From positions 334,755 to 398,754 of the forward strand of contig NZ_JAODIW010000010.1 of the NCBI RefSeq assembly GCF_026586625.1: a stretch of 64,000 nt of DNA, written 5' to 3'. The notes under the pieces are model-generated. The model saw nothing but the letters and a program-made list of their open reading frames with translations, made no database searches and had not been told where the DNA came from. Both the position numbers and the translations under genes were made by a program. Source of the stretch: Halobium salinum (GTDB lineage Archaea > Halobacteriota > Halobacteria > Halobacteriales > Haloferacaceae). Positions 21,778 to 29,267 of the stretch are shown here, piece by piece (positions within the stretch are counted from its first letter, which is position 1; each line of letters starts with the position of its first letter).

Positions 21778-23346
21778 ATGATCGTGCTTGGCCTCGACGG
21801 GGCGACGTTCTCGCTGATACGTCCCTGGGCCGACGCCGGCGAACTCCCCGCCTTCGCCCGGCTGTTCGAGGAGAGCGTCAGCGGCCCGCTCGAGAGCACC
21901 GTCCCCGAAGTCACCGTCCCCGCGTGGCCCGCCTTCGCCACCGGTCGCGAACCGTCGGTACTCGACATGTACGGGTTCACGCACTTCAACCGCGACACGA
22001 AGGAGCTGGACCTGAGCCACGACGAGTTCGTCCCCGGGAAGATGTGGGACGCGGTCTCCGACCAGGGCGGGCGCTGTGTCGTGTTCAACATCCCCGGCTC
22101 GTACCCGTGGCAGGCCATCGACGGGACCATCGTCGCCGCCGCTCCTGAGTACAAAGACTCTTACTCGCATCCGCCGGAGGCGTGGGACGAGCTACAGGAC
22201 GTGGTCGGGGAGTACAAACTCCGCAACGACGAGCGCCCCGGCTCCCGCGAGTACGTCGACCTGTCGCTCTCGCTGGTGGACAAGCGCTTCGACGGGTTCG
22301 AACACTTCGTTCGAAAGGAGGAGCCGGAGCTCGCGGTCGGCCTGATTCGGGCGACCGACCGGGTCGCCCACCACTACTGGGGACCGGACGACACGCCGCC
22401 GGCGTCGACGGAGAACGCCATCTTCGAGGTGTACCAGCGCGTCGACGAGCGCCTCGGCGAGTTCCTCGACGCTCACGGGGACGAGGACGTACTCCTGATG
22501 AGCGACCACGGCTTCGAGAAGGTCCGCCGGAAGTTCGCGCCCAACCGCGCCCTGCAGGACGCCGGCCTCGTCTCGCTCTCCGACGGCGGCGGCGACAACA
22601 CGAAGGCCTTGCTGGGGAAGGCTCGACTGGCCGCCCGAGAGGCGCTCTACCGAACCGGCCTGCTCACCGCGGTGCGCCAACTCGTCCCGGAGAGCGCGTT
22701 GACCGGGATTCCCGACGGCTCGGCGCTCGGGCTGGACAACGCCATCAACCTCGGGCGCGTCGACTGGGCGCGGACGCGAGCCGTCGCCGACATCGGCCAG
22801 AAGTCGACGCTCGTGTACACCTTCGCCGACGACCCCGACGAGATAGCCGCGGTCTGTGACGAGGCCGAGTCGGCCCTCCGCGAGGCGGCCGAGTCGGTCG
22901 GCCTCGACGTGCGCTTCGACCGGCTGCGTCGAGGGGGTCCACACACCCCCGACCTGACGATGGTCATCGAGACGCCGCGGGTACACGCCTCCTCGCGACT
23001 GGACGTGGACGACCTGCTGTTCGACGCCGACACGTCGGGCCACGCTCGCGACGGCATCCTCTTCGCCCGCGGCCCGTCGTTCCGCGACGGGACGGTCGAG
23101 GGCGCAAGCCTGACCGACCTCGCGCCGACCATCCTCCACGCGCTGGGGTACGAGATTCCGGCGAGCGCGGCCGGCCGCGTGCTCGACGTGTTCGACACGG
23201 GGAGCGACCCCGCCAACCGCGAGCCTGCGTACTACGACTTCGTCGGCGGCGACGCGGTAACGGGCGCAGAGGGCGGCGTCTCCGGCGACGAGGACCGCGA
23301 GGACGAGGTGAAAGACCGCCTGCGCGAACTCGGGTATCTGGAGTAA
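21778..23346 (+). CDS. Alkaline-phosphatase-superfamily phosphodiesterase/nucleotide pyrophosphatase
   Basis: A 522-residue type I phosphodiesterase/nucleotide pyrophosphatase-like enzyme. It begins with the metal-binding IVLGLDGATFSLI. A catalytic Thr or Ser is likely in STVPEVTVPAWPAFATG, and the second metal-site motifs are RATDRVAHHYWG and LLMSDHGFEKV, with a late TDLAPTILHALG. Proteins of this type are common in haloarchaeal glycosylation islands, but their substrate there is not known. It begins an array of four same-strand genes ending at 29267 that includes a flippase and the oligosaccharyltransferase AglB. It starts at the ATG at 21778; the frame extends upstream antisense to nothing useful. 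Confidence 0.8.
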   Translation: MIVLGLDGATFSLIRPWADAGELPAFARLFEESVSGPLESTVPEVTVPAWPAFATGREPSVLDMYGFTHFNRDTKELDLSHDEFVPGKMWDAVSDQGGRCVVFNIPGSYPWQAIDGTIVAAAPEYKDSYSHPPEAWDELQDVVGEYKLRNDERPGSREYVDLSLSLVDKRFDGFEHFVRKEEPELAVGLIRATDRVAHHYWGPDDTPPASTENAIFEVYQRVDERLGEFLDAHGDEDVLLMSDHGFEKVRRKFAPNRALQDAGLVSLSDGGGDNTKALLGKARLAAREALYRTGLLTAVRQLVPESALTGIPDGSALGLDNAINLGRVDWARTRAVADIGQKSTLVYTFADDPDEIAAVCDEAESALREAAESVGLDVRFDRLRRGGPHTPDLTMVIETPRVHASSRLDVDDLLFDADTSGHARDGILFARGPSFRDGTVEGASLTDLAPTILHALGYEIPASAAGRVLDVFDTGSDPANREPAYYDFVGGDAVTGAEGGVSGDEDREDEVKDRLRELGYLE

Positions 23347-23397: not shown

Positions 23398-24870
23398 GTG
23401 AAAGTCGGCGCCGAGGTGTCGAAGCGGTTCGTCACCAACGTCGGCGGCACCCTCGCCGGGTTCGTCGGGACGGCCGTCATCGGCTACACGCTCGGCGAGG
23501 AGGGGCTCGGGAGCTACGCCATCTTCCTCTCGCTACAGATGCTGCTCGCGGCCGCCGTCTCCTTCGGCCTCTACAACACGGTGACGAAGCTGGTGAGCGC
23601 AGGCGGGAACCGGGCGCGCCACTACACCAGTGGCGTCCTGTTCGTGCTCGGGGGGACGGCCGTCTCGGCGGTCGTCGCCGTCACGCTCCGCGGACGCATC
23701 GACCGCGTCATCGGCGTCGACGGAGCGCTGTTGCTCCCGCTCGGTGTGCTCACGTACGGCCTCTTCCGTCTCACCGGCGCCTTTCTCGAAGGGGAGGGTC
23801 GAGTCGCGCTCGCGGGGCTCGTCGAGAACAGTCGCTACCTCGTCATCGTCGCGATTCAGCTCGTCCTGCTGCTGGGACTGGAGTGGGGCGTCCGGGGTCT
23901 CATCTGGGGGCTCGTCGCCGGACAGTTCGTCACCTTCCTCGTCGCGTACGCCTACGCTCGGGTGGTGCCGGCCCGGCCCTCGCGGGCGCTGTTCTCCGAG
24001 TTCGTCGACTTCTCGAAGTTCGCGTACCTCCAGACGATGAGCAGCCAGCTGTTCAAACACGCCGACTACGTCCTGCTCGGCGCGTTCGTCGGCCCGGGTG
24101 CGGCGGGCATCTACAAGGTGTCGTTCACGGTGACGGAGGCGGCGATGCTGTTCTCGGCGGCGCTCTCCCGGGTGTCGTTCCCGGAGTTCTCCCGGCTCAC
24201 CGCCGAGGAGCGCGCCGAGAAGGTCAGGAACCTGTTGGGGAAAGCCACGTCGTACGCCGGCCTGTTCGCGCTCCCCGCGCTGGCGGGCGGCGCCGTCGTC
24301 GGCAACGACCTGCTCGCGACGCTGTTCGGTGTCGACCCGGGAACGGTCGTCCTCCCCGTGCTCGGGACGGTCGGACAGGGGAACGTCCTCGTCGTCCTGC
24401 TCGCACTCGCGAACCTGGCGAACGGCTTTCGCTCGTCATTCGAGTCGTACTTCCTCGGCACCGACCGTCCGCAGGTGGCCGCCGCGAGCTCCGTCCTGCT
24501 CATCCTCGTCTACGGCGCCGTCTTCTACCCGCTGGTGCGAGCGTTCGACGCGGCGGGGCTGGCGGTGACGACGACGCTCGCCTTCGCTGTCAGCGTCGCG
24601 TACCTGGTTCACCGGCTCGACTACCCCATTCCCGGCGAGGCGCTCCGGGACATCGCCACGCAGGTCGCGGCGGCGCTCGTGATGGCGGTGGTCGTCGTGG
24701 TGGTGACAGGACTGCTGGGTGGGGCGGCCGGCCCGGTCCGGCTGGCGGCCGTGTTGACCGTCGGCGCGGCGACTTATTTCGCGTCGCTCGTCACGCTCAA
24801 CGAACGCATCCGGAACGACGCCGTCTGGGTGTTACGGGACCTCGCGGCGGAGCGCGGCGGCGGGAGTTGA
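23398..24870 (+). CDS. Polysaccharide/lipid-linked oligosaccharide flippase (MATE/MOP-like)
   Basis: A 490-residue polytopic membrane protein with about 12-14 helices, of the Wzx/polysaccharide biosynthesis transporter type: GLGSYAIFLSLQMLLAAAVSFGL, GLYNTVTKLVSAG, FLEGEGRVALAGLVENSRYL, FAYLQTMSSQLFKHADYVLL, GAAGIYKVSFTVTEAAMLFSA and SSFESYFLGTDRPQVAA match the family's conserved stretches. It is expected to move a lipid-linked glycan across the membrane, the role suggested for AglR in haloarchaeal N-glycosylation. It uses a GTG start at 23398. A small direct repeat copied from the previous gene's stop region lies just upstream. AglB follows 49 bp downstream. Confidence 0.83.
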   Translation: MKVGAEVSKRFVTNVGGTLAGFVGTAVIGYTLGEEGLGSYAIFLSLQMLLAAAVSFGLYNTVTKLVSAGGNRARHYTSGVLFVLGGTAVSAVVAVTLRGRIDRVIGVDGALLLPLGVLTYGLFRLTGAFLEGEGRVALAGLVENSRYLVIVAIQLVLLLGLEWGVRGLIWGLVAGQFVTFLVAYAYARVVPARPSRALFSEFVDFSKFAYLQTMSSQLFKHADYVLLGAFVGPGAAGIYKVSFTVTEAAMLFSAALSRVSFPEFSRLTAEERAEKVRNLLGKATSYAGLFALPALAGGAVVGNDLLATLFGVDPGTVVLPVLGTVGQGNVLVVLLALANLANGFRSSFESYFLGTDRPQVAAASSVLLILVYGAVFYPLVRAFDAAGLAVTTTLAFAVSVAYLVHRLDYPIPGEALRDIATQVAAALVMAVVVVVVTGLLGGAAGPVRLAAVLTVGAATYFASLVTLNERIRNDAVWVLRDLAAERGGGS

Positions 24871-24919: not shown

Positions 24920-27900
24920 ATGAGTCTGCGCACAGAGAGCGACGGGGAGGTCGGCTACGCCGACCGCACCCTGGACTATCTCGAACGCCGCCCCTACGTC
25001 CCCGTGGGGCTCGCCATGACGGCGATCATGGCCGTCATGCTCTGGATTCGGCTCCTGCCGTACGACCGGTTCGTCCGTGCCGACGGCGAGGTGCTGTTCT
25101 CCGGTAACGACGCCTGGTATCACCTCCGAGAAGTGAGCTACACCGTCCGGAACTGGCCGTCGACGATTCCGTTCGACCCGTGGACCTACTTCCCCTACGG
25201 GACGAGCACGGGCCAGTTCGGGACGCTGTACGACCAGCTCGTCGCGACGGCCGCCCTCGTCGTGGGTCTCGGGAGTCCGAACCCGGAGCTCGTCGCGAAG
25301 ACCCTGCTCGTCGCACCCGCCGTCTTCGGCGCGCTCACCGCGATTCCGGTGTACTTCCTCGGGAAACGTCTGGGTGGCCGCGCGGCCGGGCTGTTCGGCG
25401 CCGCCATCCTGATGCTCCTTCCGGGTACGTTCCTCCAGCGCACCCTCGTGGGCGTCTCCGACCACAACGGGGTCGAGCCGTTCTTCCAGGCGCTGGCCGT
25501 GCTCGCACTCGTCGTCGCCTTCGCGGTGGCCGAGCGCGAGAAGCCGGTCTGGGAGCTCGTCCAGGCCCGGGAGGTCGACTCGCTCCGCCGGCCGCTCCTC
25601 TTCGCGGCGCTCGCCGGCGTCGCCGTCGCGATGTACATGTGGGTGTGGCCGCCGGGTCTCCTGCTCATCGTCATCACGGGCATCTTCCTCCTGCTGAAGA
25701 TGACGAGCGACGTGGTCGGCGGCGACACGCCGGAGCCCGTCGGCATCGTCGGCGCCGTCGCGATGACCGTGACGGGGCTCCTCCTGCTCGTGCCGATCGA
25801 GACGCTGAACCCGTCGCCGACGCGGTTTTCGATTCTCCAGCCGTTGCTCGCCTTCGCCGTCGCCTTCGGGGCCGTCTTCCTCGCCGCGCTCGCCCGGTTC
25901 TTCGAGGGCCGCGACACCGAGACGACGTACTACCCCGCCGCGGTGTTCGGCATCCTGTTCGTCCTCGCCGGCCTGCTCGCGGTCGTCACGCCGGAGTTCT
26001 TCAGTCTGCTCCTGAACAACCTCCTGCGCATCGTCGGGTTCAGCGCCAACGCGGCGACCCGCACCATCGCCGAGGCCCGACCGTTCCTCGACCCCAACCG
26101 GCTCCAGCGCTTCGGCAACATCTCCCGGACGGAGATGATCTATCGCGAGTACGGGATGGCCTTCTTCACCGCCGCGCTGGCGGCCATCTGGCTCGTGATT
26201 CGGCCGCTGGTCCGCGACGGCGAGACCCGCGAGTACACGTACGTCGGCGCCGGGCTCGCGACCGTTCTCCTCATCTTCCTCGCGCCCGGCCTGCTCTCGG
26301 CGATCGCCGGCGTCGTCGGCGGCGACCCCCAGGTGCTCGGCCTCGCCATCGTGACGGCGCTGCTCGTCGGCGCGGTCGTGCTCGCGCGGTACGACGCCGA
26401 GGTCCTGTTCGTCGTCGTCTGGGCGGGCTTCATCACCGCCGCCGCGTTCACGCAGGTGCGGTTCAACTACTACCTCGCCGTCGTCGTCGCCGTGCTGAAC
26501 GCGTTCCTGCTCGGCGAACTCCTCCGCGTGCTGGACCTGACGGGCTCGGTCGCCCGCGCCCGGGACAACGCCGACGCGCTGAAGGCGGTCGCCGTGGTCG
26601 TCGTCCTCGTCGTCGCGCTCGTCCCCGGCATGGCGGTGTCGCTCGCCGCGAGCGGCTCCGGCGGCGGGGGCCAGGGGATGCAGCTCACCACTCCGGCCCA
26701 CCAGACGGCGAAGTTCCACGGCCCCGGCGCGGTCACGCAGTGGGACGGCTCGCTGGACTGGATGAGCAACAACACGCCCGCCGTCGGTGAGTACGGCGGC
26801 GCCGACAACGCCGGCGAGTTGGACTACTACGGCACCTACCAGGAGCCCGCCGACGGTAACTACGACTACCCGGACGGCGCCTACGGCGTGATGTCCTGGT
26901 GGGACTACGGCCATTGGATCACCGTCGAGGGCGACCGCATCCCGAACGCCAACCCGTTCCAGCAGGGCGCGGTGCAGGCCGCGAACTACCTGCTCGCCCC
27001 GAGCGAGTCCCAGGCCGAGGACGTGCTCCGGAGCTACGAGAACGACGCGGAGGGCGAGGGCAACCAGACGCGGCTGGTGATGGTCGACTGGCAGATGACG
27101 ACCGTCGGCCAGAAGTTCGGCGCGCCCATCGTCTTCTACGACGCCGAGGAGAACGTCGGCGCCAACGACTTCTACTACCCCGTGCTGCGTCAGAACCAGC
27201 AGGGCGGCGCCTCCTTCGGCTTCTGGATGCACAAACAGCGCTACTACGACAGCCAGATGGTCCGGCTGTATCAGTACCACGGGAGCGCGATGGAGCCCCA
27301 GCCCATCGTCGTCGACTGGGAGACCCAGACGTTCCAGGGCCAGAGCTACCGCGTGCTCCCGGCCGGAAACGGGAGCCAGCCGGTGCGGACGTTCGACAAC
27401 ATGAGCGCGGCACGGGCCTACGTCGAGCAGGACGGCAGCGCGCAGGTCGGCGGCTTCGGGCCGTACCCCGAGGAGCGCGTCCCGGCGCTCGAACACTACC
27501 GGCTGGTGAAGTCGAGCGAGTCGACCGCGTACGACTCACGAGGATTCGTCAATAGCCTGGTCGGGGTGCAGCGGTCGCTCGGGCTTCCGTTCCAGCCCCA
27601 GCTGTTCACCCAGACGACGCCGAGTTGGGTGAAGACGTTCGAACGCGTCCCCGGCGCGACGGTCGAGGGGAGCGGCGCCCCGGCCAACGCGACGGTGACC
27701 GCGACGGTGCAGATGAACGTGCCGTCGTCGAACTCCACGTTCACCTACCGCCAGCAGACGCAGGCGGACGCACAGGGGAACTTCGAGTTCACGCTCCCGT
27801 ACTCCACGACGGGCTACGACCAGTACGGTACGGAGGAGGGGTACACGAACACGAGCGTGCGGGCGACGGGCCCGTACTTCGTCGCCTCCGAGCCGACCGT

Positions 27901-28252
27901 CAACGAGAGCGGCTACGGCGTCCGCTACGCCTCGAACGCGAGCGTCCCCGAGGGCCAGGTCGTCGGAGCCGAGGACGGGCCGGTGACGGTCGAACTCGAA
28001 CGTGACACCCGCCCGCCGGCGAACGCCGGCAACGGCTCCGCCGGGAACGCGAGCGCGGGTAACGCGACTGCGGGCGGCGCCGGGAACGCCTCGACCGGGA
28101 ACGTCACCGAGGCGGCGACGAACGGCTCGAACGCGTCAAGCTTGGACGGAGGCGCGGTGACGACCGGCGAGTCGAGTTCCGCCGGAACGACTGGCTTCGT
28201 CTCCGTCCTCACCGCTGGACTGGCCGTGCTGAGCACGGTCTGGGTGGTCTGA
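24920..28252 (+). CDS. aglB: Dolichyl-phosphate-oligosaccharide protein glycosyltransferase (archaeal OST)
   Basis: A 1110-residue STT3-family enzyme. It has about 13 N-terminal membrane helices, an external-loop acidic motif (GNDAWYHLREV, Asp64), a second one in GVSDHNGVEPFFQ, and the hallmark WWDYG (residues 660-664) in the large extracellular domain. The C-terminal region is Ala/Gly/Asn-rich with many sequons, and the last segment (GFVSVLTAGLAVLSTVWVV) is a possible C-terminal helix. AglB transfers a lipid-linked glycan to Asn in Asn-X-Ser/Thr of S-layer and other surface proteins. The ATG at 24920 follows an A+T-rich tract ending ataacagttg. It lies 49 bp after a flippase and 4 bp before a DUF368 gene. 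Confidence 0.95.
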   Translation: MSLRTESDGEVGYADRTLDYLERRPYVPVGLAMTAIMAVMLWIRLLPYDRFVRADGEVLFSGNDAWYHLREVSYTVRNWPSTIPFDPWTYFPYGTSTGQFGTLYDQLVATAALVVGLGSPNPELVAKTLLVAPAVFGALTAIPVYFLGKRLGGRAAGLFGAAILMLLPGTFLQRTLVGVSDHNGVEPFFQALAVLALVVAFAVAEREKPVWELVQAREVDSLRRPLLFAALAGVAVAMYMWVWPPGLLLIVITGIFLLLKMTSDVVGGDTPEPVGIVGAVAMTVTGLLLLVPIETLNPSPTRFSILQPLLAFAVAFGAVFLAALARFFEGRDTETTYYPAAVFGILFVLAGLLAVVTPEFFSLLLNNLLRIVGFSANAATRTIAEARPFLDPNRLQRFGNISRTEMIYREYGMAFFTAALAAIWLVIRPLVRDGETREYTYVGAGLATVLLIFLAPGLLSAIAGVVGGDPQVLGLAIVTALLVGAVVLARYDAEVLFVVVWAGFITAAAFTQVRFNYYLAVVVAVLNAFLLGELLRVLDLTGSVARARDNADALKAVAVVVVLVVALVPGMAVSLAASGSGGGGQGMQLTTPAHQTAKFHGPGAVTQWDGSLDWMSNNTPAVGEYGGADNAGELDYYGTYQEPADGNYDYPDGAYGVMSWWDYGHWITVEGDRIPNANPFQQGAVQAANYLLAPSESQAEDVLRSYENDAEGEGNQTRLVMVDWQMTTVGQKFGAPIVFYDAEENVGANDFYYPVLRQNQQGGASFGFWMHKQRYYDSQMVRLYQYHGSAMEPQPIVVDWETQTFQGQSYRVLPAGNGSQPVRTFDNMSAARAYVEQDGSAQVGGFGPYPEERVPALEHYRLVKSSESTAYDSRGFVNSLVGVQRSLGLPFQPQLFTQTTPSWVKTFERVPGATVEGSGAPANATVTATVQMNVPSSNSTFTYRQQTQADAQGNFEFTLPYSTTGYDQYGTEEGYTNTSVRATGPYFVASEPTVNESGYGVRYASNASVPEGQVVGAEDGPVTVELERDTRPPANAGNGSAGNASAGNATAGGAGNASTGNVTEAATNGSNASSLDGGAVTTGESSSAGTTGFVSVLTAGLAVLSTVWVV

Positions 28253-28256
28253 GCCG

Positions 28257-29267
28257 ATGGCCGTCGACCTCCGCTCGTGGCTCGTCGTGTACGCCAAGGG
28301 GTTCTGCATGGGCGCCGCCGACGCCGTCCCCGGCGTCTCCGGCGGCACCATCGCCCTCATCACGGGCATCTACGAGCGGCTGATCGACGCCATCACCGCG
28401 GTCGACGCCGACAACGTTCGGCGGTTCCTGGGCGGGCTCACCTCGGACCGAGACGAGGCGCTGGCCGCGCTCCGGGAGATGGACGTGCTCTTCCTCCTCG
28501 TGCTCGGTTCCGGGCTCGTCACGGCGGTCGTCGCCATCGCGAGCACCCTCGAGCACGCGGTGGAGACCGCGCCGGTCCCGACGTTCGGCTTCTTCTTCGG
28601 CCTCATCGCCGCGAGCGCCGCGGTGCTGGTCGGCGAGGTGTCGGTCGGGACCGCCCGCCGAAAGCTCGCCGCCGTAGTAGGGTTCCTACTGGCGTTCGTC
28701 GTCAGCGGGGCCGCGGAGACGCTCATCCCGGAAGGGAGCGTCGTCGTGGTGTTCTTCGCCGGGATGATAGCCATCAGCGCGATGATTCTCCCCGGTATCT
28801 CGGGGTCACTGCTGCTCCTGATTCTCGGGCAGTACACGTTCCTCACCGGGTCGCTCAGCGCGTTCAAGGACGGCGTGTTCGGTCTCCTGCTCGGAACGAA
28901 CGGCCTCGACGCGCTGACCGAGAGCGGCGCCGTCGTGGTGTCGTTCCTCGTGGGAGCGGTCATCGGCCTGCTGACCATCTCCCGCGTCGTCGACTGGGCG
29001 CTGGAACACTACCGTGACGCGACGTTTACGTTCCTCATCTTCCTCATCGTCGGCGCGCTGCGGGCGCCGGTGGTCCAGACGAGCACCCGACTCGCCGAGC
29101 AGGGTCGCGTCTGGAGCCTCGACCTCGTCGGGGTGTTCGCCGGTGCGGCCGTCGTCGGCGCCGTCGCCATCGTCCTCGTCGACCGCTACGCCGGGGACAT
29201 CGACCTCGGCGAGGACGAGTCGGACCCGGAGATGGACCCGGAGGACGTCGCGTCGGGCGACGACTGA
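28257..29267 (+). CDS. DUF368 membrane protein, probable polyprenyl-phosphate carrier translocase
   Basis: A 336-residue protein with about nine helices. The DUF368 signature is clear: KGFCMGAADAVPGVSGGTIAL (residues ~15-34), FGFFFGLIAASAAVLVGE, FFAGMIAISAMILPGISGS and a LLLLILGQYTFLTGSL helix. The two VPGVSGG/LPGISGS segments are an internal duplication. DUF368 members in bacteria (PopT) have been shown to translocate undecaprenyl phosphate for reuse. The gene starts 4 bp after aglB, so it is almost certainly co-transcribed. Here it could recycle dolichyl phosphate released by AglB. That role is an inference by family and position. The C-terminus is acidic (GEDESDPEMDPEDV). Confidence 0.88.
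   Translation: MAVDLRSWLVVYAKGFCMGAADAVPGVSGGTIALITGIYERLIDAITAVDADNVRRFLGGLTSDRDEALAALREMDVLFLLVLGSGLVTAVVAIASTLEHAVETAPVPTFGFFFGLIAASAAVLVGEVSVGTARRKLAAVVGFLLAFVVSGAAETLIPEGSVVVVFFAGMIAISAMILPGISGSLLLLILGQYTFLTGSLSAFKDGVFGLLLGTNGLDALTESGAVVVSFLVGAVIGLLTISRVVDWALEHYRDATFTFLIFLIVGALRAPVVQTSTRLAEQGRVWSLDLVGVFAGAAVVGAVAIVLVDRYAGDIDLGEDESDPEMDPEDVASGDD

Follow-up and report, generated by a model that had tools for sequence, protein, structure and literature searches.

In haloarchaea, the oligosaccharyltransferase gene aglB and a gene for a DUF368 membrane protein form a conserved pair, and this pair is a strong candidate for the missing carrier-recycling step of the group. We characterised the pair in a 64,000-nucleotide stretch of the Halobium salinum genome, referred to here as the window, and surveyed its conservation in related genomes. 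It is likely that the aglB-DUF368 unit covers both glycan transfer and dolichyl-phosphate return in haloarchaeal N-glycosylation. In the papers on archaeal N-glycosylation that we consulted, no protein is assigned to bringing spent dolichyl phosphate back to the cytoplasmic face, and the pair singles out one candidate gene in nearly all haloarchaea. Because this gene is also present in a tractable model organism, the proposal can be tested directly by gene deletion. If the proposal is true, a bacterial carrier-recycling family extends to a second domain of life and to a different glycan pathway.

The pair and the gene preceding it are arranged in the window as follows.

23398 to 24870, forward strand: gene for a MOP-type (Wzx/MurJ-like) flippase, with matches to PF13440, PF01943 and PF03023
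24920 to 28252, forward strand: aglB, archaeal oligosaccharyltransferase (STT3 family, long type), 1110 aa, intact
28253 to 28256: gap of 4 nt between the aglB stop and the DUF368 ATG (TGA-GCCG-ATG)
28257 to 29267, forward strand: gene for a DUF368/PF04018 (VCA0040-PopT family) membrane protein, 336 aa, intact; proposed dolichyl-phosphate importer

The aglB reading frame opens with ATG at 24920, and its stop codon ends at 28252. Its product scored 914.6 bits against TIGR04154 (cut-off 450), matched the domains PF02516 (STT3), PF22627 and PF18079, and carries the catalytic WWDYG motif at residue 660. GC content at the third codon position was 0.94 in aglB and 0.93 in the DUF368 gene, values typical of real haloarchaeal genes. 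An earlier, sequence-only reading of this DNA had placed the two genes four bases apart, and positions 28253-28256 are indeed the only bases separating the two reading frames. That reading had overlooked the MOP-type flippase gene, which ends 49 bp 5' of aglB on the same strand; its product may be the outward flippase for lipid-linked glycan in H. salinum.

The DUF368 assignment, with the two signature motifs intact, was likewise borne out. The window protein scored 219.7 bits against PF04018, for which the gathering cut-off is 26, with VPGVSGG at residues 24-30 and LPGISGS at residues 178-184. When it was aligned with 13 sampled bacterial and archaeal DUF368 sequences (n = 14), 35 columns were invariant, and the residues kept by the window protein include D22 and both PG(V/I)SG motifs. 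This is the sole DUF368 gene of the H. salinum genome. The best NCBIfam match was the polyprenyl-phosphate transporter model NF052564, at 191.7 bits against a cut-off of 400, and the PopT-type model NF052563, which has the same cut-off, gave 96.9 bits. The remaining archaeal DUF368 members tested, haloarchaeal and non-haloarchaeal, likewise fell under the equivalog cut-offs of both models. Since both cut-offs were missed, we file the window protein as a PF04018 member and not as an equivalog. An AlphaFold2 model had a pLDDT of 91.6 and a pTM of 0.85, indicating a confident predicted fold. A sequence search of the PDB with the window protein gave no match at E values up to 1, and a Foldseek search of solved structures with the model gave none at E ≤ 0.001.

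Two bacterial members of the same Pfam family serve as points of comparison. VCA0040 of Vibrio cholerae (NF052564 type) represents the closer of the two NCBI transporter models, and the window protein shares the columns that are invariant across the 14 sequences, Vibrio relatives included. VCA0040, however, works in a bacterial setting of peptidoglycan and undecaprenyl phosphate, whereas the haloarchaeal protein pairs with AglB and stays well under the model cut-off. PopT (NF052563 type) is a proposed polyprenyl-phosphate transporter; it handles a bacterial carrier, and its model matches the window protein less well.

To assess how general the pairing is, 195 genomes from one order of haloarchaea were searched for the DUF368 and AglB families. 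DUF368 was found in 189 of the 195 genomes and AglB in 190. Adjacency was scored when DUF368 lay directly 3' of AglB on the same strand, with the two profile matches under 1.5 kb apart. This arrangement was present in 140 of the 187 genomes with coordinates for both genes, compared with approximately 0.04 genomes expected under random placement, and it spans 47 of 65 genera and 14 of 15 families. The sequence-only reading had held that its proposal would fall if adjacency were not conserved in related genera; most genera keep the pair. Three further genomes had AglB and DUF368 2-3 kb apart. One genome of 98% completeness (G011) contained AglB with DUF368 undetected, and another of 97% (G065) contained DUF368 with AglB undetected.

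Junctions were examined in related loci by locating the reading frames by motif. Of the 37 readable junctions with AglB directly upstream, 28 had a stop-to-start distance of -4 to +9 nt. Such short or overlapping junctions suggest that aglB and DUF368 are translationally coupled in haloarchaea. The genomic layout also has the features expected of an operon, with both genes on the same strand, a gap sized for a single transcript and conservation across genera. A fusion of AglB and DUF368 was considered where the DUF368 frame continued a long way 5' without a stop (in G029, for example, over 1066 aa) and was ruled out by frame arithmetic.

In some genomes (e.g. G024, G078 and G143), DUF368 was present in two copies or there was a further, weakly matching AglB-like protein of approximately 800 aa; the stretch examined around the second DUF368 of G024 contained no AglB match. 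In Haladaptatus pallidirubidus (L161), the DUF368 gene is on plasmid unnamed6, with no AglB match in the stretch examined. The gene was split over two frames in G156 (contig C21, 182593-183356), where it adjoins aglB, and in Halobellus rufus (L104). These split frames reflect either decay or sequencing error.

The genus containing Haloferax mucosum showed a variation on this arrangement. All 15 of its genomes carry both genes, which were directly adjacent in six, separated by 1.8-2.6 kb in eight, and on different contigs in one, at a contig end. The gap is filled by an AglM-like UDP-glucose dehydrogenase gene on the opposite strand. We presume, from these congeneric genomes and general knowledge, that the locus tag between aglB and the DUF368 gene of H. 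volcanii is probably aglM, also on the opposite strand. Haloferax was considered as a lineage that had lost adjacency and was rejected as such, as its genes were adjacent or no more than 2.6 kb apart in the sampled genomes, with the contig-end genome unjudgeable. In H. volcanii, aglF, aglI, aglG and aglB are HVO_RS12035, HVO_RS12040, HVO_RS12045 and HVO_RS12050 (PMC7749143, PMC5131992), and the DUF368 gene HVO_RS12060 partly rescues V. cholerae lacking VCA0040 (Sit et al. 2022, PMC9876793). An archaeal DUF368 protein with published functional evidence is therefore encoded two locus tags past aglB. By locus tag it occupies the aglB neighbourhood, as the window gene does, although the window gene adjoins aglB directly. 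Our search of the literature on HVO_1532 and haloarchaeal DUF368 found no connection to AglB; most subscription journals were outside its reach.

Outside haloarchaea, DUF368 was patchy. It occurred in approximately 34 of approximately 205 non-haloarchaeal Halobacteriota genomes, and all 34 of these also had an STT3 gene. None of the listed coordinates in these 34 genomes placed DUF368 beside AglB/STT3. The finding therefore concerns haloarchaea, and as most other Halobacteriota are without DUF368, the protein is not a universal archaeal solution. In the closest non-haloarchaeal case (L225-L228, family f36), DUF368 was approximately 13-15 kb from the STT3 gene and not adjacent to it, perhaps within one larger glycan region.

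A tree of 84 archaeal DUF368 proteins, with adjacency labels assigned automatically, placed the haloarchaeal proteins in one clade apart from the other archaeal members (support 100/100). The adjacency label changed 4 times on this tree compared with 27.4 times when shuffled, a count that includes at least one adjacent row (L032) scored as non-adjacent. The main non-adjacent group, from families f4, f7 and f9, formed a single nested clade, so that separation appears to be derived. This pattern suggests that the pairing is old and was lost a few times; the branches are long, and details of the tree are therefore unsure. Adjacency was lost in all sampled members of three genera of family f4 (g31, g42 and g51) and in most of family f7. 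Linkage is therefore not required. The relocated DUF368 genes had no consistent partner among their neighbours.

Surroundings of the pair were compared in 41 loci, one per genus. Because every locus had been picked as adjacent, this sample informs on what surrounds the pair and not on how frequent the pair is. The most common immediate upstream neighbour was a glycosyltransferase cluster (18 of 40 loci), and a flippase held this position in 5 of 40. The upstream neighbour was on the opposite strand in 24 of 40 loci. The cluster to which the window flippase belongs preceded the pair in 17 of 41 loci. Downstream, even the most common immediate cluster was present in just 5 of 35. The flanks thus vary on both sides, and the conserved unit is the aglB-DUF368 pair. 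Genes resembling anaerobic glycerol-3-phosphate dehydrogenase, named from sequence, were seen 3' of DUF368 in many loci (L192 among them). A GlpA-like gene persists beside DUF368 in L104 and L224, where AglB is not nearby, as if aglB had left and DUF368 had stayed.

The constancy of the pair within changing flanks bears on an alternative explanation, in which the genes form an old operon with no pathway-specific link and DUF368 is a general polyprenyl-phosphate factor, or an envelope or salt-adaptation factor, serving all surface glycans. DUF368 persists in lineages where aglB no longer adjoins it, extra copies lie away from AglB in some genomes, and Sit et al. tied the family to sodium and alkaline stress (PMC9876793), all of which would suit a general factor. 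We nevertheless regard this explanation as unlikely, since a pair that stays intact while both flanks change, with overlap or near overlap in most loci, would be hard to keep over such a long time without selection.

The recycling reading of DUF368 is the best available, and would make aglB and DUF368 a two-gene transcription unit for consecutive steps of the lipid-carrier cycle in haloarchaeal N-glycosylation. H. volcanii assembles its glycans on dolichol phosphate and flips them, and AglB then carries out the transfer (PMC3871713). AglB would move the glycan from its dolichyl-phosphate carrier onto protein on the outer side of the cell, and the freed dolichyl phosphate would stay behind in the outer leaflet. 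The DUF368 protein would then bring this carrier back to the inner leaflet for reloading by cytoplasmic glycosyltransferases, and in H. salinum the upstream MOP-type flippase may supply the outward step. Because AglB uses a monophosphate carrier, the lipid that it releases should already be of the kind that PopT is presumed to take, with no pyrophosphatase needed in between. DUF368 proteins take part in the recycling of undecaprenyl phosphate, a substrate of this chemical type, in bacteria, and in bacterial DUF368 mutants undecaprenyl phosphate builds up in the outer leaflet (PMC12826051). We infer co-transcription of the pair and, for DUF368, transport, its substrate and direction, and a place as the main route in vivo.

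The sequence-only reading had proposed the pair as a candidate for carrier recycling. Its candidacy is supported by the adjacency across genera and by the overlapping or near-overlapping genes; its reach is narrower than archaea as a whole, and its general idea was already in print. Sit et al. 2022 noted that DUF368 is enriched in Halobacteria, mentioned dolichol phosphate and reported sodium dependence (PMC9876793). They thus partly anticipated a recycling role for DUF368 in general; the present analysis adds the conserved link between DUF368 and AglB. In a more specific form of the proposal, AglB and DUF368 would act as a physical unit, with AglB handing the freed dolichyl phosphate straight to a dedicated return transporter, maybe driven by the sodium gradient. 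Direct handover would be in keeping with translational coupling and with a pair that persists amid changing neighbours, but we consider this form rather improbable.

The DedA/UptA family (PF09335) is a separate Pfam family that, like DUF368, has been assigned to polyprenyl-phosphate recycling. DedA was found in 57 of 60 relatives and in five copies in H. salinum, making redundancy with DUF368 likely, and the two families are partly redundant in V. cholerae (PMC9876793). DedA might therefore do most of the dolichyl-phosphate recycling, leaving DUF368 as a minor, condition-dependent backup. This division of labour appears quite improbable, as DUF368 is retained in nearly all surveyed haloarchaeal genomes and was the only one of the two found locked to aglB, in a linkage survey that was systematic for DUF368 only. 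That DUF368 instead moves the loaded carrier outward, as the lipid-linked-glycan flippase, is very improbable: it adjoins an enzyme that uses lipid-linked glycan, and translocation of that glycan has been described as unknown, with AglR involved (PMC4335974), but the outer-leaflet accumulation of undecaprenyl phosphate in bacterial mutants (PMC12826051) and the MOP-type flippase, of a known outward class, directly 5' of the pair in the window both argue against it.

A gene for a type I phosphodiesterase of the alkaline-phosphatase superfamily lies 5' of the flippase gene in the window (21778-23346, forward strand). Related sulfatase/phosphodiesterase clusters recur 5' of aglB in many haloarchaea, one (c5) in 16 of 41 loci and another (c15) in 5 of 41.
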